Origin: Chitinophaga oryzae
GTDB lineage: Bacteria; Bacteroidota; Bacteroidia; Chitinophagales; Chitinophagaceae
Length of the DNA: 64,000 nt
Direction of reading: 5' to 3'
Assembly (NCBI RefSeq): GCF_012516375.2
Contig: NZ_CP051204.2
Location: 6,758,001 to 6,822,000, forward strand
Made by a program: the position numbers and the translations under genes. Positions 4,525-12,283 of this stretch are shown in pieces; position 1 is the stretch's first letter; each line of letters starts with the position of its first letter. Under the pieces are notes generated by a model. The model did no database searches. It was not told the origin of the DNA and was given only the letters and a program-made list of their open reading frames with translations.

Positions 4525-6564
4525 TTATTCGCGGAACAGTTTTTCAAGACCGGCGAGCGCTGTCTTCATGTTGATACCTTTGCCCAATACGGGTTTGAAA
4601 ATATCTCCTTGTTCGCGTACCCGTTGCACGGCATTATGGATAGTAAAATCTTTCATCGTCAGCCCTTTTTTCACTTCTTCCCAGTGCAGCGGCATCGACA
4701 CCGTGGCGCCGGGCTTGGGGCGCAGGGAGTAAGGCGCCGCTACGGTGGCCTGCGGCCTGTTTTGGAGAAAATCGATGTACATTTTTCTTTTCCGCCGGTT
4801 AGTGGCACGCTCAATGCTGGTGGTGTCCGGCAGGCGGCCATGTACCAGCCGGGCGATGATACGGCCGAATTCTTTGGATTGTTCGTAGGTGTATTTTGCA
4901 CCCAGCGGAATATAGATATGCAGGCCGGTAGAGCCGGAAGTTTTACAGTAACCAGGGATGCCTGCCGCCTCCAGTATTTCGTGGGTCACCTGCGCCGCTT
5001 CAATCACCTCGTTGAAAGTAGTTTTATCGGGGTCAAGGTCAATAATACACCAGTCGGGGTTTTCCGGTTTGCGCAGCCGGCTGCTCCACGGGTTGATCTC
5101 TATACACCCCAGCGAGGCCATATACAGCAGCGTCGCTTCATTTTCTCCCACGAGATATTCTTTTTCGCGGGGCTCGTCGCTGCTGTGATAGGGAAACGTA
5201 GGCGCCCAGTCGGGCGCTTTGCCGGAAACATCTTTCTGATAAAAGCTCTCGCCTTTGATACCGTTGGGGAAGCGGTTGAGCGACTGTGGCCGGTCTTTGA
5301 TATAAGGCACCATATAAGGCGCTATCTGATAGTAGTAGTTGATCATATCACGTTTGGTGATTTTTTCACCCGGCCAGTAGATCTTGCTGAGATTGGTGAA
5401 TTTAAGCGCATGGCCGTTGATGGTGCGCACCTGTGTTTCTTCACCCGGGTTCAGCAATGTGTTGCGGACTTTAGCCGCTGCAGGCTTCAACGCTTTTTTC
5501 AGCGAAGTTGCTTTGGCGGTTTTCTTTTCCGTTGTGTTTTTTGATTTGGCGGTGCGTGCCTTCACCGGCTTTTCCGCTGTTACCTGTGCCGGTGCTTTGT
5601 CTTCCCGCATGCCTTCAAACGAGGGATGCCGCATGACGCCATCGGATGTCATTTCGCGGAAACTGACTTCGCAGATCAGTTGGGGCTTCAGCCAGACTGC
5701 CGCTGCCTGCGGGGGATTGGGCCGGAAACGGGAAGGTTTGTTCACATCGGGGATGACGGCAAACGGCGACTTTTTTACTTCCAGCGGAGCAAACTGTTTG
5801 ATCAGTTCCTGTTGCAGCGCGATGGAGAATCCGGTACCGATTTTACCGGTGTATTGCAGTTTACCATTTTCGTATACCCCTACCAGTAAGGAGCTGAAAG
5901 GTTTGGAAGACCCTTCGTTTTTCGTATATCCGCCGATGACGACTTCCTGCCGGTTGCTGGTTTTGATTTTGAGCCAGTCGCGTGTGCGGACGCCGGGAGT
6001 ATAGCGACTGTCGGTTCTTTTGGCGATGATACCTTCCAGCTTCAGCTTTTTAGCCTGTTCGAAGAAGTCGGTGCCGTCCGTTACAAAACCTTCGCTGAAA
6101 CGAAGGACCGCGTTATTCACCGGCATCAGTTGCTGCAATAATTTTTTGCGCTGCATCAGTGGCAGCGGAGTGAGGTCTTTACCATTGAGCCAGAGGATGT
6201 CGAAGAGATAATACACCAGTTGGCCGTCTGCCTCGCTGCGCCATTCCTGCAACCGGCTGAAGTCCGTATACCCTTCTTCATCGATCACTACTATTTCGCC
6301 ATCCACCACGGCGTTGACTTTCCATTGCTGCAACGCCTGGTAAACAGGGTAATATTTTTCATTAAAGGACTTGTTGTTACGTGACCGCAGTTCCACCGTT
6401 CCTTTGTCGAGGAAGGCCAGGGCGCGATACCCATCCCATTTGATTTCGTATAGCCAGCCGGGTTCGTCGGTGGCAGACGATGTGAGGGTAGCCAGCATGG
6501 GCGTGGTATTACCGGGTTTGGGCATGGCCTGTTTACCGGAAGTTCTTTGAGCGCACATAGGCAA
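4525..6564 (-). CDS. ligD: LigD-type DNA ligase with ligase and polymerase domains
   Basis: The 679-residue protein carries an ATP-dependent DNA ligase at the N terminus (about residues 14-310). Its nucleotidyl-acceptor motif is EIKWDGYRA, with the adenylated lysine at about 42. A lysine/alanine-rich linker (about 320-370) leads to a LigD-type primase-polymerase domain (about 390-679). There the metal ligands LDPD (Asp509, Asp511) and YIDF (Asp598) and the SGSTGLH nucleotide-binding turn are visible. LigD works with Ku in bacterial non-homologous end joining. The 3'-phosphoesterase domain found in many LigD proteins is absent. No Ku gene lies in this window. The start could also be Met3 or Met14. 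Confidence 0.93.
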   Translation of the reverse strand: MPMCAQRTSGKQAMPKPGNTTPMLATLTSSATDEPGWLYEIKWDGYRALAFLDKGTVELRSRNNKSFNEKYYPVYQALQQWKVNAVVDGEIVVIDEEGYTDFSRLQEWRSEADGQLVYYLFDILWLNGKDLTPLPLMQRKKLLQQLMPVNNAVLRFSEGFVTDGTDFFEQAKKLKLEGIIAKRTDSRYTPGVRTRDWLKIKTSNRQEVVIGGYTKNEGSSKPFSSLLVGVYENGKLQYTGKIGTGFSIALQQELIKQFAPLEVKKSPFAVIPDVNKPSRFRPNPPQAAAVWLKPQLICEVSFREMTSDGVMRHPSFEGMREDKAPAQVTAEKPVKARTAKSKNTTEKKTAKATSLKKALKPAAAKVRNTLLNPGEETQVRTINGHALKFTNLSKIYWPGEKITKRDMINYYYQIAPYMVPYIKDRPQSLNRFPNGIKGESFYQKDVSGKAPDWAPTFPYHSSDEPREKEYLVGENEATLLYMASLGCIEINPWSSRLRKPENPDWCIIDLDPDKTTFNEVIEAAQVTHEILEAAGIPGYCKTSGSTGLHIYIPLGAKYTYEQSKEFGRIIARLVHGRLPDTTSIERATNRRKRKMYIDFLQNRPQATVAAPYSLRPKPGATVSMPLHWEEVKKGLTMKDFTIHNAVQRVREQGDIFKPVLGKGINMKTALAGLEKLFRE

Positions 6565-6570
6565 CAGGTT

Positions 6571-7527
6571 TTATGACTTACGCCGGTTGTATAACAGTGC
6601 GCCGGTGGCGACCAGTGTTACCACGCCGGCCAGTATCAGCCATTTGGGAATGCGGGCCGCCGGCACATATTCGACACCGTTGACGCCTGCCACCGCTGCT
6701 TCTTCCACATATCGTCCGCAGCGGGGTTTGGCCGCTGTTTGGAAGTGGTCGGCCAGCCACTGCAGGCGGCGCTGCATCCCGGCGCCGTAGAGAGGGCGCC
6801 CATGACCGGTGGCCACTGCCTCCGGTTGCAGTTCCGCCAGCTTTTTCACGCTGGTTTCTGCAGATATCCAATCGGGTGTGAAATATTTCGGAGGGCCGGA
6901 GACTTGTTTGGCTTGTGTGATAGTGCTGCTCAGGGCTTCTGCACGGGTGGTCACAAATGCGTCGCCCGCGAGCAACAGTTTATCTTCGTCGCGGAAAAGG
7001 CTGATGTGTCCCGGAGTGTGACCGGGCGTTTCGATGTAACGCCAGCCATCCAGTCCGGGAATCGTTTTGTCTTCCGGCAGCAATAGCAGATGCCCATTCA
7101 GGTCGATGGGGTCTTTAGGGAAAGTCCATGACATCATCGTCATGAGGCCGCCGCCGGCGCAGGGGTCTGGTGGCGGATAGGCCGAACGGCCCGTCAGATA
7201 AGGCGCTTCCAGGTAATGTGCATATACCGGTATTTCCCATTCCCGTAGTAGCGATGGCAGCGCACCTACATGGTCAAAATGACCGTGTGTCAGCACAATC
7301 GCCGAAGGCACAAAGTGCGGGGCAAACAGTTGCCGCGCCGCCGCTTTGATTTTGGGGGCTGATGTGCGGAGGCCTGCATCTACCAGTACCCATGAGCGGG
7401 TACGTGCATTCTGCACCAGGTACATGTTCACAAAAAGATCACGGATGCCCCACACGCCCGGCGCCACCTGAAACCATGCCCTGTCTGCCATCTCTTCAAT
7501 GTTGGTAATGTTTTCCATAGTATGCAC
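6571..7527 (-). CDS. Metallo-beta-lactamase-fold hydrolase with C-terminal membrane anchor
   Basis: The 318-residue protein has the metal-binding motif HGHFDH at residues 81-86, followed by the further ligands TPGHTPGH, AGDAF and ATGHGRP of the MBL superfamily. A C-terminal hydrophobic helix (about residues 293-312), flanked by arginine and lysine, probably anchors it in the inner membrane with the catalytic domain in the cytosol; there is no N-terminal signal. Substrate is unknown; the overall look is of the glyoxalase-II/quorum-lactonase-like group. It ends 6 bp before the LigD start codon, so the two are probably co-transcribed. A start at Met4 is equally possible. Confidence 0.88.
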   Translation of the reverse strand: MHTMENITNIEEMADRAWFQVAPGVWGIRDLFVNMYLVQNARTRSWVLVDAGLRTSAPKIKAAARQLFAPHFVPSAIVLTHGHFDHVGALPSLLREWEIPVYAHYLEAPYLTGRSAYPPPDPCAGGGLMTMMSWTFPKDPIDLNGHLLLLPEDKTIPGLDGWRYIETPGHTPGHISLFRDEDKLLLAGDAFVTTRAEALSSTITQAKQVSGPPKYFTPDWISAETSVKKLAELQPEAVATGHGRPLYGAGMQRRLQWLADHFQTAAKPRCGRYVEEAAVAGVNGVEYVPAARIPKWLILAGVVTLVATGALLYNRRKS

Positions 7528-7585
7528 TTTTGGAGGTTGTTACCACAATTCCCGTTCCTGCAATAAAGCCTGAGCTCGTTACTGA

Positions 7586-8038
7586 CTAACAAGCCAGGAC
7601 CAGCGGGTCCCCTTCATCTTTGAATTTCCTTTCATCACTGCGGACAGGCACGTCATTGATAGACGCAAACCGGCGCTGCATCAGGCCGTGAGCGTCAAAC
7701 TCCCATAATTCATTGCCGTAAGAGCGAAACCAGTTGCCCACCTTGTCGTGCCATTCGTATTCAAACCTTACCGCTATTTTGTTGTCGTTGAAAGTCCACA
7801 GTTCCTTTTTCAGGCGGTAATCCAGTTCTTTTTCCCATTTTTTAGTCAAAAAGGCCACTACTTCCTCGCGGCCGTTGATGAACTGGTCACGGTTGCGCCA
7901 TTCAGTGTTTACAGTGTAGGCTTTTGATACTTTTTCGGGATCACGGCTGTTCCAGGCATCTTCTGCCATTTGAACTTTCTGCAGGGCGGTCTCCAGCGTG
8001 AAAGGAGGAAAGGGAGGTTTCTGTTCCATGTTTTTCAT
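7586..8038 (-). CDS. NTF2-like protein of the DUF1348 family
   Basis: The 150-residue protein matches the single-domain DUF1348 group with an NTF2/SnoaL-like cone fold. The recognisable core is [17 protein letters not shown], followed by a tryptophan- and arginine-rich middle ([28 protein letters not shown]) and [11 protein letters not shown]. Members have no firmly assigned activity; the fold serves as a small-molecule pocket. A perfect 10-bp inverted repeat lies 17 bp upstream of the start codon and matches the palindrome in front of the TetR gene near 11.6 kb. This gene is therefore probably under TetR control together with the divergent synthase-oxidase gene. Confidence 0.85.
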
Positions 8039-8055
8039 TTTTTTTGATCCACAAT

Positions 8056-8079
8056 AATAGACAGACCAATCTGTCTATT
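8056..8079. promoter_or_regulatory. Predicted TetR operator (perfect inverted repeat)
   Basis: AATAGACAGA (8056-8065) and TCTGTCTATT (8070-8079) form a perfect 10-bp dyad around CCAA. It lies between two divergent genes, 17 bp from the DUF1348 start and about 156 bp from the synthase-fusion start. A related dyad precedes the TetR gene, which is the basis for naming it an operator. Confidence 0.7.
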
Positions 8080-8235
8080 TTTAGTAAAGATATGACTTAT
8101 TGTTATTTGAGCAAGAATTTTTTTGGGAAGATTTGGAGGAAGATCCCCTCATCAGCTTGCTATATTTGAAAAATCGGCTATCTTGATTCCTCATAACAAG
8201 CCACACATTTTCATCCACCGTTGACAAACACCAAT

Positions 8236-10122
8236 ATGCAATTAGAGAACGTCTATATTACGGCAGCCGGTAAATATCTCCCTGGCGCGCCTGTTCACAA
8301 TGATGAAATAGAAGAATACCTTGGGTTGATTGACGGGAAACCATCCCGCAGCAAAACGAAGATGCTGTCTCAAAACGGTATCCGGTCGAGGTATTACGCG
8401 CTGGACAAACAACAACGTACAACCCATACCGTTAGCGGCATGACTGCCAGGGCCATTGAAGATTGCCTGAGCCGGAACGGCGCCAGCAAGACAGACATAC
8501 AGCTCATCTCTGCCGCTACCACACAGTCTGACTTACCGGTGCCCGGTTTCGCCAGCATGGTGCATGCCGACCTGGGCAGCCCTGCCTGCGAAATTGCCAG
8601 TCACCAGAGCGTGTGCGCAGCAGGATTGATGGCTATCAAAAACGCCTATACGAATATTCAGACCGGCGCCGCGCAAACAGCCGTAGCCTGCGCCGGAGAA
8701 CTGGCCAGCAGGCTCTTTAAAGCCAAACGGTTTGAACAGCAGCAACGTATCCGTGACGGGCACGGACTGGAACTGGAAACAGATTTTCTCCGCTGGATGC
8801 TGTCAGACGGCGCCGGCGCATTGTTATTGCAAAACAGGCCGGCAGCGCAACATATCAGCTTGCAAATAGAATGGATAGACCTGCGGTCCTATGCACACCT
8901 GTACGACGTATGCATGTATGCAGGCAGAAACAAAGGAGAAGCCGGTGGTCGGCCGCTCTCATGGATGGACTATGACAGTTTCTCTGCGGCAGACAGGGAC
9001 GGAGCGCTCAACCTGAAGCAGGACCTCCGGCTGGTAGACAACATGGTGAAGCTGGGCGTACAACGCTTTTTCGAGCTGGTCGATGAAGGGAAGTTTGACG
9101 CAGCGGGGTTCGACTGGCTGGTATGCCACTACTCTTCCCATCACTTTAAGGAGAAGATCATACAGCTGTTGGCCAAAGGCGGCGTTGCCATCCCTGAAGA
9201 AAAATGGTTCAGCAACCTGTACTCCGTTGGTAACGTGGGCACCGCTTCCATCTTTGTTTTGCTGGAAGAACTGTTGCGCAGCAAACCCCTGAAAGCAGGC
9301 GATAAAATACTCTGCATGGTGCCTGAAAGCGGTCGTTTTATCACTGGCTTTATGATGCTGACAGTAGTACCGCCAACAGCCTCGCAGACCTTTGATCCAT
9401 CGTCCTTGCTTACAGACATTAAGGCGCCTGAAATCAGGATACATCTGGAGAACCCGGTACTGGAATGGCTGATACGCCAGCTGACGACGGTATGGATCGA
9501 TTTTGAAAGTTCCCTGCGACAGGTGCCGATTGTTAAAAAGATATTTTCCGGCACGCTCACACTGGAAGAATACAAAGCCCTGCTGTTCAACCTCCGGCAG
9601 CAGGTGATAGACGGCTCCCAGTGGATCGCCCGCGCGGCCTCCAACGTGAGCATCGGGCATTTCGATATCCGCTCTTCCTTTATCTCCCATTCCCGCGATG
9701 AACACCGGGACTACCAGATACTGGAAAAGAACTATATTCAATGTGGCGGCAGCCTTGAAGAACTGCAACGGGGAGAGAAGAACATCGGCAGCGAAGCGTT
9801 GAGCGCCTACATGTTCCAGAGGGCCAGCCAGCCGGACCCCTTTGATCTGCTGGGCGGCATGTTCATCATCGAGGGCCTCGGCAACCGTGTGGCGGGCAAC
9901 TGGGGACGCGCCATTCAGCAACAGCTGCAACTGCGGGACGACCAGGTATCGTTTTTCACTTATCATGAAACCAGCGATTCCAGCGAAAACCATTTCGAAC
10001 GGTTTGAAAACGCGATCCAGTCAGGCCTGCTGACGACCAGCCTTGCAGAGAGAATCGTAAAAACCGCGAAAGTAACAGGCCGTTTATACCGGCTGCAACT
10101 GGAGCAAATTGGAAATTACTGA
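8236..10122 (+). CDS. Ketoacyl-synthase III / haem-oxygenase-like oxidase fusion protein
   Basis: This 628-residue protein (ATG at 8236; a TTG at 8221 would add five residues) joins two enzyme types. Residues about 1-380 form a thiolase-fold KAS III (FabH-like) condensing domain. It shows the nucleophile in SVCAAGL (Cys127), a candidate catalytic histidine in LVCHYSSHH (His298) and Asn333 in SVGNVGTAS. Residues about 400-628 are helical and resemble haem-oxygenase-like iron oxidases and TenA/PqqC relatives. Candidate metal ligands are His485, Glu489 and His490 (SHSRDEH), Glu546 (FIIEGLGN), and His577, Asp581 and His586 (YHETSDSSENH). The expected chemistry is carbon-carbon condensation of acyl groups followed by an oxygen-dependent modification. 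That is inference, and the substrate is unknown. It is the first gene of a two-gene unit beside a TetR gene. Confidence 0.82.
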   Translation: MQLENVYITAAGKYLPGAPVHNDEIEEYLGLIDGKPSRSKTKMLSQNGIRSRYYALDKQQRTTHTVSGMTARAIEDCLSRNGASKTDIQLISAATTQSDLPVPGFASMVHADLGSPACEIASHQSVCAAGLMAIKNAYTNIQTGAAQTAVACAGELASRLFKAKRFEQQQRIRDGHGLELETDFLRWMLSDGAGALLLQNRPAAQHISLQIEWIDLRSYAHLYDVCMYAGRNKGEAGGRPLSWMDYDSFSAADRDGALNLKQDLRLVDNMVKLGVQRFFELVDEGKFDAAGFDWLVCHYSSHHFKEKIIQLLAKGGVAIPEEKWFSNLYSVGNVGTASIFVLLEELLRSKPLKAGDKILCMVPESGRFITGFMMLTVVPPTASQTFDPSSLLTDIKAPEIRIHLENPVLEWLIRQLTTVWIDFESSLRQVPIVKKIFSGTLTLEEYKALLFNLRQQVIDGSQWIARAASNVSIGHFDIRSSFISHSRDEHRDYQILEKNYIQCGGSLEELQRGEKNIGSEALSAYMFQRASQPDPFDLLGGMFIIEGLGNRVAGNWGRAIQQQLQLRDDQVSFFTYHETSDSSENHFERFENAIQSGLLTTSLAERIVKTAKVTGRLYRLQLEQIGNY

Positions 10123-10139
10123 CCGTATTGTACTTGTGT

Positions 10140-11024
10140 ATGAAAGACAGCGCTTATTTTGAACAGCTGGAGAATAACCCCAGGAATCCCAGCCACTGGC
10201 ATGCCCTGTTCCTCGACAGCAGCATCCCGTTCAACCCGGACGCCAAAGCCGCGTTCCTGTACGATTCCAGCCGCAGGACCAAACAGTTCCTGTATCCTTT
10301 CGTAAAAGTGTTTGCCCGGCTGGGCATCATTCTGCTGCAGGTGTTTAAAGCTATTGCACCTAATATTATCAATGCGCCGCAACGCCTGCACCGCTGGCTG
10401 TACCGGGGCATGAAATACTGCATTACACCGGAAGCCAATTTCCTGATCCTGCGTCATTTTTACCTGGGATCGGAAGTGCTGCGGTTTATAAAAGACAATG
10501 TGAAAGATATCGAAGACATTCCCATGCATCCGTTGAAACCGGTGTCCGTCAATGCCGTAAAGGATGACCTCTTTCTACAGCACGATCTTAATCTCTACAA
10601 CTTTATCATCAACCTGAATAATGCGCTGAAAGCAAAAGGCAAGACCATTACCAAAGTGAATGAACCTGATTTTAGCGCCATCACCGTGGGGCCGCTGCCC
10701 TTTGAGCCTTTCCGGAACAAATGGAGCAACTGCATTGATCTGGCTACTGCTATTGAGATATTCACACCGGTGTACCAGTTCTTTCTGACGGATAGTGATT
10801 TCTGGAGAGCATCCAATTCATTACAGCTGGATGAGGTGATCGGGTTATATGCCGCTACGATCATGAACTGCCCGGAGCGGCTGGTAGCGCTGAACAATAA
10901 ACATCCCATGATCCCGCTGCCCACTTATGGCGCTGCTTTCCGGCTCACGTTGCACGGCCTTTCCACAGAAGTGCTGCATGCGTTGCTGGTAGAACAAAAG
11001 CTAAAACAGGCAGCAGCCAACTAA
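10140..11024 (+). CDS. Unrecognised protein paired with the synthase-oxidase fusion
   Basis: I do not recognise this family. I take the ATG at 10140 (17 bp after the fusion gene) over a TTG at 10128, giving 294 residues. The sequence is rich in aromatic and basic residues. A weakly hydrophobic stretch near residues 55-75 (VFARLGIILLQVFKAIAPNI) could lie on a membrane, but no clear signal peptide or full transmembrane helix is seen. The C-terminal half is mostly helical, with conserved-looking NKWSNCIDLATAIEIF and PLPTYGAAFRLTLHGLSTEV. Its stop codon overlaps that of the convergent TetR gene by three bases. Tight coupling to the fusion gene suggests a shared pathway. Confidence 0.7.
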   Translation: MKDSAYFEQLENNPRNPSHWHALFLDSSIPFNPDAKAAFLYDSSRRTKQFLYPFVKVFARLGIILLQVFKAIAPNIINAPQRLHRWLYRGMKYCITPEANFLILRHFYLGSEVLRFIKDNVKDIEDIPMHPLKPVSVNAVKDDLFLQHDLNLYNFIINLNNALKAKGKTITKVNEPDFSAITVGPLPFEPFRNKWSNCIDLATAIEIFTPVYQFFLTDSDFWRASNSLQLDEVIGLYAATIMNCPERLVALNNKHPMIPLPTYGAAFRLTLHGLSTEVLHALLVEQKLKQAAAN

Positions 11025-11563
11025 AGCAGTTCAGCCACCATCTTTCTGGCCTCCTGTACCGGCCACTGGTTGGCATACAGCTGGCTCTCCACCATGGCGG
11101 ATTCAAAAAGCAGGTAAATATGGTCCTGCACCAGTTGTTTTTCCTTGTTGAGAATAGCAGAAAAATAAGCGCGCAGGTCCTTCTTATGGTCCCGGATAAT
11201 ACGGAGGGCTTCCCCGTCCTGTGCAGTGATTTCAGAGAGGATATTTAAAAAAGCGCACCCACGGTAGTTTTCCTTTTCGTTGATGTCCAGCAGGAAATCG
11301 AAGGCGGCGAGGATTTTCTCTTTGGGTTTGGAAGGCTTTTCCGTAAAGCTTTTCAGGGCGTCAAACCAGTAGTTGTGCCGGTATTCCAGGAAAGCTTCCA
11401 GCAACGCTTCCTTGGAGGCGAAATGCAGGTACAGGCTGGCCCTGGCCACACCCGCTTCCTGCAATACCTGGTTGATGCCGGTGGCGTGGTAGCCCTGCCT
11501 GTAAAATAGATCGGTGGCTGTATCCAGCAACCGCTGCCGGGGATCACTGCTTTTCTGTTTCAT
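11021..11563 (-). CDS. TetR/AcrR family transcriptional regulator
   Basis: The 180-residue protein has the TetR N-terminal helix-turn-helix (about residues 8-55), with ATDLFYRQGYHATGINQVLQEAGVARASLYLHFASKEAL. A helical ligand-binding domain follows, similar to TetR proteins with a TetR_C_11-type tail. Such proteins usually repress until a small hydrophobic molecule binds. It converges on the synthase-fusion unit. Its own upstream dyad at 11573-11596 resembles the perfect dyad between the DUF1348 and fusion genes. It is therefore the likely repressor of the module and of itself. Confidence 0.92.
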   Translation of the reverse strand: MKQKSSDPRQRLLDTATDLFYRQGYHATGINQVLQEAGVARASLYLHFASKEALLEAFLEYRHNYWFDALKSFTEKPSKPKEKILAAFDFLLDINEKENYRGCAFLNILSEITAQDGEALRIIRDHKKDLRAYFSAILNKEKQLVQDHIYLLFESAMVESQLYANQWPVQEARKMVAELL

Positions 11564-11572
11564 ACTACAAAG

Positions 11573-11596
11573 ATAAGACAGACTGATCTATCTTTC
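11573..11596. promoter_or_regulatory. Predicted TetR autoregulatory operator
   Basis: ATAAGACAGA (11573-11582), CTGA, TCTATCTTTC (11587-11596) is an imperfect dyad with 7 of 10 arm pairs. Its left half shares the AGACAGA half-site, and it keeps the 4-nt centre of the perfect dyad at 8056-8079. It sits 9 bp upstream of the TetR start codon and overlaps the end of rpiA. Confidence 0.55.
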
Positions 11597-12283
11597 GGGT
11601 GATACTACCGTTACCCCGTTTTTACCCGCTATAATGGCTTCATGGGCCATCCGGTAAAACAGGGACGTCTCCAGTATCCCGGGGATGGCCTTTAACTGTG
11701 GATTAATTTCTGCAACCGGGGGAAATGCGGTAAAGAAGATGTCGATCAGCAGGTTGCCCCGTTCGGTGATCACAGCCCCGTCTTTTTTGTTGCTAAGCCG
11801 CAACTGCGGTTGTGCGTCGGGGTACAGGCGGCGCAATGCCTGTTGCACGAAAGACAACGCATCCGGGACCAGTTCTATCACCACCGGTACGGTAGGCAGT
11901 AGTTTTTCCACATATTTGGGACCGTCGCCCACCAGTATAAACCGTTGGGCCATGGCGGCCAGCAGCTTTTCCAGCGTATGTACGCCGCCACCGCTTTTCA
12001 GGGCGTTGAGCTGACGGTCAAATTGATCGCAGCCGTCGAAATGGAAGTCCAGCTGCGCTACGGAAGCCGTTTCCCGGATGATAAACCCGTGTTCCTGCAA
12101 CAGCAGCCGGGTGTTAAAAGAGGCCGTCACAACGGAGATGTTTTCCCGCAGGCCCGGCGCCGCCGCCAATTCCCGCACCAGGTGCGCGATCGTGCTACCC
12201 GCTCCCAGTCCCACGGTATGCCCTTCCCGTATATAAGTCAATGCTTTCCTGGCTGCTTCCAGTTTATAGTCAATCGTTTCCAT
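11588..12283 (-). CDS. rpiA: Ribose-5-phosphate isomerase A
   Basis: The 231-residue protein interconverts ribose 5-phosphate and ribulose 5-phosphate in the pentose phosphate pathway. Family signatures are GLGAGSTIAHLV (phosphate loop) and DGCDQFDRQLNALKSGGG, the counterpart of the usual DGADE...IKGGGA. The two acidic residues and the lysine of the active site are kept, as is the glutamate in HTLEKLLAA. The change of the usual Glu to Gln after the second Asp marks it as a divergent copy. It ends 25 bp before the TetR gene start but its role looks housekeeping. It is divergent from the PL6 gene. Confidence 0.92.
   Translation of the reverse strand: METIDYKLEAARKALTYIREGHTVGLGAGSTIAHLVRELAAAPGLRENISVVTASFNTRLLLQEHGFIIRETASVAQLDFHFDGCDQFDRQLNALKSGGGVHTLEKLLAAMAQRFILVGDGPKYVEKLLPTVPVVIELVPDALSFVQQALRRLYPDAQPQLRLSNKKDGAVITERGNLLIDIFFTAFPPVAEINPQLKAIPGILETSLFYRMAHEAIIAGKNGVTVVSPER

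Follow-up and report, generated by a model that had tools for sequence, protein, structure and literature searches.

The window analysed here, a 64-kb stretch (64,000 nucleotides) of Chitinophaga oryzae, comprises positions 6758001-6822000 of a host genome of 8.36 Mb in one contig. It carries a two-gene module, in which a gene fusing a ketosynthase (KS) to a haem-oxygenase-like (HO) domain is followed by a DUF6999 gene; near-identical relatives include C. eiseniae. The genes and features are as follows (positions within the window; + and -, strand):

8236..10122, +: KS-HO fusion gene, 628 aa from the ATG at 8236 (633 aa from an in-frame TTG at 8221)
8236..9369, +: predicted StlD/DarB-type ketosynthase domain, residues 1-378; triad and signature residues invariant in 59/59 fusions
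9391..10119, +: predicted haem-oxygenase-like domain, residues 386-628 (PF14518, 29.5 bits; 3dde, E 7.7e-10; model helices)
10140..11024, +: DUF6999 (PF22523) partner gene, 294 aa from the ATG at 10140 (385.3 bits; in-frame TTG at 10128)
8056..8079, no strand: perfect 9-bp inverted repeat, operator-like, ATAGACNG-N6-CNGTCTAT; attributed to the tetR-DUF1348 unit rather than the module
7586..8038, -: DUF1348 (SnoaL/NTF2-like) gene, apparently an older neighbour outside the module
11021..11563, -: TetR-family regulator gene, apparently an older neighbour, downstream of rpiA
11588..12283, -: rpiA, bordering the putative insertion site

Much of what an earlier note had read from this DNA was confirmed. 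Synthase and C-terminal oxidase-like domain lie in one ORF (open reading frame; 8236-10122), the DUF6999 ATG at 10140 follows the fusion stop by 17 bp, and the pair is flanked by DUF1348 on one side, divergent from the fusion gene, and by tetR on the other, convergent with DUF6999 and overlapping its end by 4 bp. The downstream gene, which the note had left unrecognised, remains so in function but not in family. A scan for promoters and terminators gave sites no more numerous than in shuffled sequence.

Recurrence of the two-gene module

The GTDB species genomes were scanned with DUF6999 only, using peptide patterns of one query, a search that under-samples distant DUF6999 and has limited reach into Proteobacteria. 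It returned 66 loci (labelled L below), and the full-length fusion is present at 63 of them, as 62 ORFs of 600-700 aa and once inside a longer ORF (L098). At the remaining loci the fusion lies in broken frames (L073, L104) or a KS remnant is joined to DUF6999 (L079). The hosts belong to Bacteroidota, Paenibacillaceae and Comamonadaceae, together with metagenome-assembled genomes of Moraxellaceae and Bdellovibrionales. The module is rare, with 5/395 genomes in the phylum, counting the window genome and one partial 32-bit match, while in the genus 15 of 79 genomes carry a full-length fusion. Among the 36 genus genomes covered by both searches, both genes are present in 7 and both absent in 29. 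Taken together, the comparisons identify the fusion and DUF6999 as a real, scattered and mobile module. By these counts, as far as gene architecture goes, the central reading of the earlier note, in which a condensing domain shares its chain with an oxygen- or metal-dependent one and a partner gene is dedicated to them downstream, is supported and holds more widely than the note could show; its chemistry stays inferential.

Decayed or frame-broken copies were observed as well (L079:9626-10771, L090:10001-10902, L073, L104), as were short KS fragments in two genus genomes (G052, G045), and by these the module is judged to be also undergoing loss. Chitinophaga-type loci occupy at least three gene neighbourhoods (L059, L060, L067, L069, L090; L066, L079; L040-L043 and the window), one of them having a UDP-glucosyltransferase-like gene upstream (L059, L060, L067, L090). 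In L098 a 1170-aa open frame (6432-9941) continues upstream of the fusion; judged by eye, its first ~550 residues resemble an overlapping reading frame in GC-rich DNA more than a true domain.

On plasmid pTHAF3_a of Pseudoalteromonas sp. THAF3 (locus L106), the KS, an 'iron-containing redox enzyme' and DUF6999 are encoded by three consecutive separate genes (FIU82_RS18250/18245/18240) in the same order as in the window. The KS is 46% identical to the fusion KS and the redox enzyme 38% identical to the HO domain, whereas the DUF6999 protein, scoring 321.9 bits, is only 22-23% identical. To our knowledge this gene set is annotated without a product. Because the split form holds all three parts consecutively, it is good evidence, at the level of gene order, that KS, HO and DUF6999 work together and that the fusion is no accident. 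The nearest printed arrangement that we found appears to be in the azaserine cluster, where the available part of the source lists azsD, a KAS III-family gene, next to azsE, an 'iron-containing redox enzyme' gene (PMC10445470). These are, however, separate genes of another pathway, in which AzsD shifts an acyl group between carrier proteins (as given in the same part of PMC10445470).

Among the titles and passages that searches of the open literature brought up, with most subscription papers outside their reach, none described a KS-HO plus DUF6999 module, in agreement with the earlier note, which knew of no described pathway with such a gene set. The searches likewise returned nothing on DUF6999, on dialkylresorcinol with heme oxygenase-like proteins, or on 3DDE with heme oxygenase-like proteins. 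The parts come from known families, and the apparent newness lies in their fusion, in the changed ligand set and in the close linkage to DUF6999.

Ketosynthase half, haem-oxygenase-like half and DUF6999

Three alignments were used, A1 with 57, A2 with 58 and A3 with 24 of the 66 loci; the window is in each of them and L106 in A3, and loci that were broken or nearly identical to others were excluded. Residues 11-383 of the fusion score 414 bits against NF005293, the StlD/DarB family, below its curated cut-off of 450, and the score against NF053539, DarB of dialkylresorcinol pathways, is 382.2 bits with a cut-off of 550. The KS half has the StlD fold and the Cys-His-Asn triad and is 38% identical to StlD over 372 residues. 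Counted from the ATG at 8236, the Cys127, His298 and Asn333 pointed out in the earlier note are present, and together with Arg159/Phe161/Lys162, Arg186, Glu364 and Arg367 they are invariant in all 59 aligned fusions, window included. Arg186, Glu364 and Arg367 are common to DarB-like proteins, while Arg159/Phe161/Lys162 form a signature of the fusions' own. A KS tree was built by a quick method from 71 of the 79 rows, after removal of near-duplicates, with SH-aLRT (the SH-like approximate likelihood ratio test) as its only support measure; its outgroup branch is very long and long branches were flagged. On it the fusions need 2 changes and the 12 DarB rows form a branch of their own. Within the StlD/DarB ketosynthases, the dialkyl-cyclohexanedione/resorcinol formers of stilbene, dialkylresorcinol and flexirubin pathways, these comparisons place the N-terminal half on a separate branch. 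The condensing domain read as KAS III in the earlier note is indeed a condensing enzyme with the triad, yet StlD is far closer than a generic FabH/KAS III, which is rejected as its identity. It further differs from StlD/DarB in being fused to an oxidase domain and in having no carrier-protein gene in the window.

Given this likeness, the product might be a dialkylresorcinol or a dialkyl-hydroquinone, with the KS forming a dialkyl-cyclohexanedione and the oxidase domain replacing a DarA-type aromatase. Aromatisation is a two-electron oxidation, which a metal oxidase could conceivably supply, and the retained Arg186, Glu364 and Arg367 would fit. We nevertheless regard this product as doubtful, given the scores under both NCBIfam cut-offs, the separate DarB branch, the absence of a carrier protein from the window and the residues Arg159/Phe161/Lys162/Cys297/Tyr299, which are unlike DarB. 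Furthermore, the four flanking genes scanned have no DarA-like annotation, although DarA itself was not searched for.

A related ketosynthase, ~46% identical to the fusion KS, occurs in two Streptomyces plasmid clusters (L119:8703-18279, L120:8712-18272). It has Arg159 and Lys162, with Met at the Phe161 position, and is followed by a 321-327 aa protein, an FAD monooxygenase, SCP2, FabF and a P450. That protein has no Pfam match in L119; the unknown gene beside the Streptomyces plasmid ketosynthase was rejected as a DUF6999 (probability 0.09%), and neither stretch has an annotated haem-oxygenase-like or DUF6999 gene.

Haem-oxygenase-like enzymes catalyse O2-dependent desaturation, decarboxylation and N-oxygenation. 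As an isolated domain, residues 386-628 match Haem_oxygenas_2 (PF14518) with 29.5 bits, above the gathering cut-off of 28.9, while within the whole protein the score is only 27.1 bits, under it; 24 of 26 relatives match at E <= 0.1. A 26-sequence HO profile found a single PDB entry at E <= 10, namely 3dde (E 7.7e-10), a haem-oxygenase-like protein without an assigned function. No sequence similarity to the solved UndA and SznF structures was recovered by this profile at that threshold. Since ketosynthases filled the rows shown in the fold search with the whole protein, the fold assignment of this half rests on sequence and helix pattern. An OleA-like head-to-head condensation followed by UndA-like oxidative decarboxylation, which would yield long-chain ketones or alkenes, is in our estimate quite unlikely.

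Seven positions invariant in 59 rows are metal-ligand candidates: His485, Glu489 and Asp492 in model helix 476-502, Glu546 in 536-564, His577 and Asp581 in 568-584, and His586. Characterised haem-oxygenase-like enzymes have a common E-H-E-H-(D/E)-H motif, the first two residues of which lie on core helix 1, according to the part of PMC11363339 that was available. Glu546, His577, Asp581 and His586 fit the last four positions. With UndA, SznF, BesC, CADD and FlcD/FlcE, the window protein shares the domain family, the second-helix Glu and the third-helix H-x3-D-...-H, but it differs in its first helix, in a Tyr where 3dde has the first-helix His (profile alignment), and in its position C-terminal to a ketosynthase. 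The candidate ligands fit the metal-ligand set proposed in the earlier note only in part, the first pair of the motif being replaced, and a metal site in this half appears likely.

Alternatively, the C-terminal domain may not be an oxygenase acting on the KS product at all; it might be a PqqC-like catalyst that needs no metal, or serve as a scaffold or for protection. The Tyr and the unusual first helix would agree with this, and a role in protection from desiccation is described for one protein that contains an HDO-like domain (available part of PMC13232832). Seven His or acidic positions kept in 59 rows across four phyla, the tight KS linkage and, at many loci, the adjoining hydroxylase or desaturase genes make it unlikely.

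Related PF14518-type oxidases were also seen in a recurring operon of T_hemolysin, AMP-binding enzyme, oxidase and SDR genes on plasmids of Vibrio, Pseudoalteromonas and Citrobacter (L121:4834-8437, L122:4824-8394, L123:3859-7393). In L122 the oxidase lies inside the AMP-binding gene, and two-component genes follow the operon in L121 and L122. It looks like an acyl-derived small-molecule pathway; what it has in common with the module is the related PF14518 domain, here next to an acyl-activating-type gene, but neither a ketosynthase nor DUF6999 is annotated in the stretches examined.

The partner protein matches DUF6999 far above the gathering score of 27, and its model (mean predicted local distance difference test, pLDDT, 88.3) is nearly all helix. 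Fold searches of the PDB (Foldseek, VIA-align) and of viral models gave no significant match, which does not show a new fold. Residues invariant in 58 rows include R109, H110, H152, D153, H259, R272, H276 and E281 (numbered from the TTG at 10128), and from these it is plausible that DUF6999 is an enzyme. A diverged haem-oxygenase-like domain was rejected as its identity (profile comparison probability 0.14%). DUF6999 also occurs in Caulobacter vibrioides.

The tetR-DUF1348 surroundings

The two-gene cassette lies between tetR and DUF1348, and the earlier note had taken the TetR for its dedicated repressor and the NTF2-like gene for a pathway member. In favour of this, the gap between the divergent DUF1348 and fusion genes holds a perfect palindrome, 156 bp ahead of the fusion ATG, and the exact 18-bp form is found in 5/79 genus genomes, all of them fusion-bearing; the form ATAGACNG-N6-CNGTCTAT occurs a single time in the window genome. 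The module also has a distantly TetR-like ORF nearby in L087 (the next gene, E 2e-4) and in L074 (E 2e-9), so that other local regulators of the module are possible.

Fusion-free genomes point the other way. DUF1348 is present in 57 genomes, of which the 30 best loci were inspected; 24 of these lack the fusion, and at 14 of the 24 a TetR with 53-76% identity is found in the 3.4 kb around DUF1348. In L136 rpiA, tetR, DUF1348 and LigD are consecutive, which is the window order minus the cassette. The palindrome, which in the window is 17 bp before DUF1348, recurs with 1-2 mismatches in 12/12 scored TetR-DUF1348 gaps of fusion-free loci, against never fewer than 4 in 200 base shuffles each, which preserve base composition only; the consensus was picked after viewing the scored sequences, L154 offered only 7 bp to score, and L148 was left out, its TetR being on the other side. 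By comparison, it was found in 0/14 scored fusion upstream regions of other clades (14 of 62 such loci; best, 6 mismatches), and in L043 it stands ~1.3 kb away from the fusion, separated from it by another ORF. The count of exact palindromes, taken alone, would have misled toward a TetR-fusion link.

TetR, palindrome and DUF1348 form a recurring Chitinophaga unit independent of the fusion (window 7586-8079 and 11021-11563; L136-L154). Because the three co-occur in fusion-free Chitinophaga loci, tetR and DUF1348 look like an older unit, between which the cassette was apparently placed. We reject TetR as the module's own regulator and DUF1348 as its partner, a role for both being very unlikely, while TetR may have a side effect on the fusion promoter.

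A putative lipid pathway

Many relatives of the module have further lipid genes. Counts were taken from blastp clusters, in which Pfam confirmed five hydroxylase and two desaturase ORFs. A fatty-acid hydroxylase-cluster ORF is present at 36/66 loci; at 31 it immediately precedes the fusion in the same orientation, and at 13 with a 4-bp overlap. In L091 and L092 a desaturase-cluster ORF lies upstream; in L093, L094 and L102 it separates the fusion from DUF6999. The operon hydroxylases, including those of Paenibacillus (L080) and Comamonadaceae (L091), mostly have 34-50% median mutual identity, and their best matches to 8 of the 9 PF04116 genes of the window genome reach at most ~35%. Exceptions are second copies in L055 and L058, 49-55% identical to L116; the second copies of L055, L058 and L097 are of other kinds. 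In the window clade no hydroxylase or desaturase gene adjoins the module. As a side observation, L061:7800-8090 holds, by eye, only a 97-aa hydroxylase-like piece.

StlD/DarB enzymes join two acyl chains to a cyclohexanedione. Because of this chemistry and that of the haem-oxygenase-like enzymes, we posit an order of 'condense, then oxidise', and consider it fairly probable that the two genes form the core of a lipid pathway which moves horizontally and in which two acyl chains are condensed and the product is then oxidised. In the KS half, one fatty acyl thioester would be loaded on Cys127 and joined, in the manner of StlD/DarB, to a beta-ketoacyl or enoyl thioester as the second chain; the result would be a dialkyl beta-keto intermediate, either branched or cyclic. 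Still held on the same polypeptide, this intermediate would be oxidised with O2 at a centre of the HO half that would be non-haem and probably contain two metals. DUF6999 might catalyse the next step or act as a complex partner, possibly at the membrane, and the hydroxylase of many relatives, or the desaturase of a few, would further modify the chains. Metal content, step order, substrates and product are here those that we infer. Since the hydroxylase and desaturase partners act on fatty chains, a membrane-directed dialkyl lipid is the favoured product.

Several points weigh against this pathway. In place of the E-H pair, the first helix has H-x3-E-x2-D (H485/E489/D492), a deviation from the characterised enzymes by which metal binding may be altered. 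For the separate HO protein of L106, PF14518 gives no match at E <= 1, the link being the alignment (38%) and the annotation, and the Comamonadaceae/Bdellovibrionales branch is distant, with 29-31% HO identity. Within the stretch examined, neither the window nor 30/66 loci have a hydroxylase-cluster ORF. None of the 98 PF00550 matches of the genome falls inside the window, one being ~4 kb from a stand-alone DarB-like gene, and in relatives, where ORFs <80 aa are unlisted, small carriers could be missed. No acyl-carrier gene is near the module, and the thioesters named above are therefore candidate substrates.

A more far-reaching version is put forward only tentatively: hydroxylase or desaturase, fusion and DUF6999 might form a self-contained, horizontally spread pathway to an undescribed class of oxidised dialkyl lipids, the intermediate being channelled to an oxidase whose metal site is non-standard, and DUF6999 being an enzyme of new fold. 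In the haem-oxygenase-like enzyme FlcD, which performs a carbon excision, a deviating ligand motif went along with a new cofactor, as far as the available part of PMC11363339 describes it. If the proposed pathway is true, two or three genes, few enough to be expressed heterologously, would connect a ketosynthase type whose products are cyclic dialkyl compounds with an oxidase family that is known for breaking bonds in unusual ways. DUF6999 would gain a pathway context, and the haem-oxygenase-like oxidases would gain an unusual ligand set.

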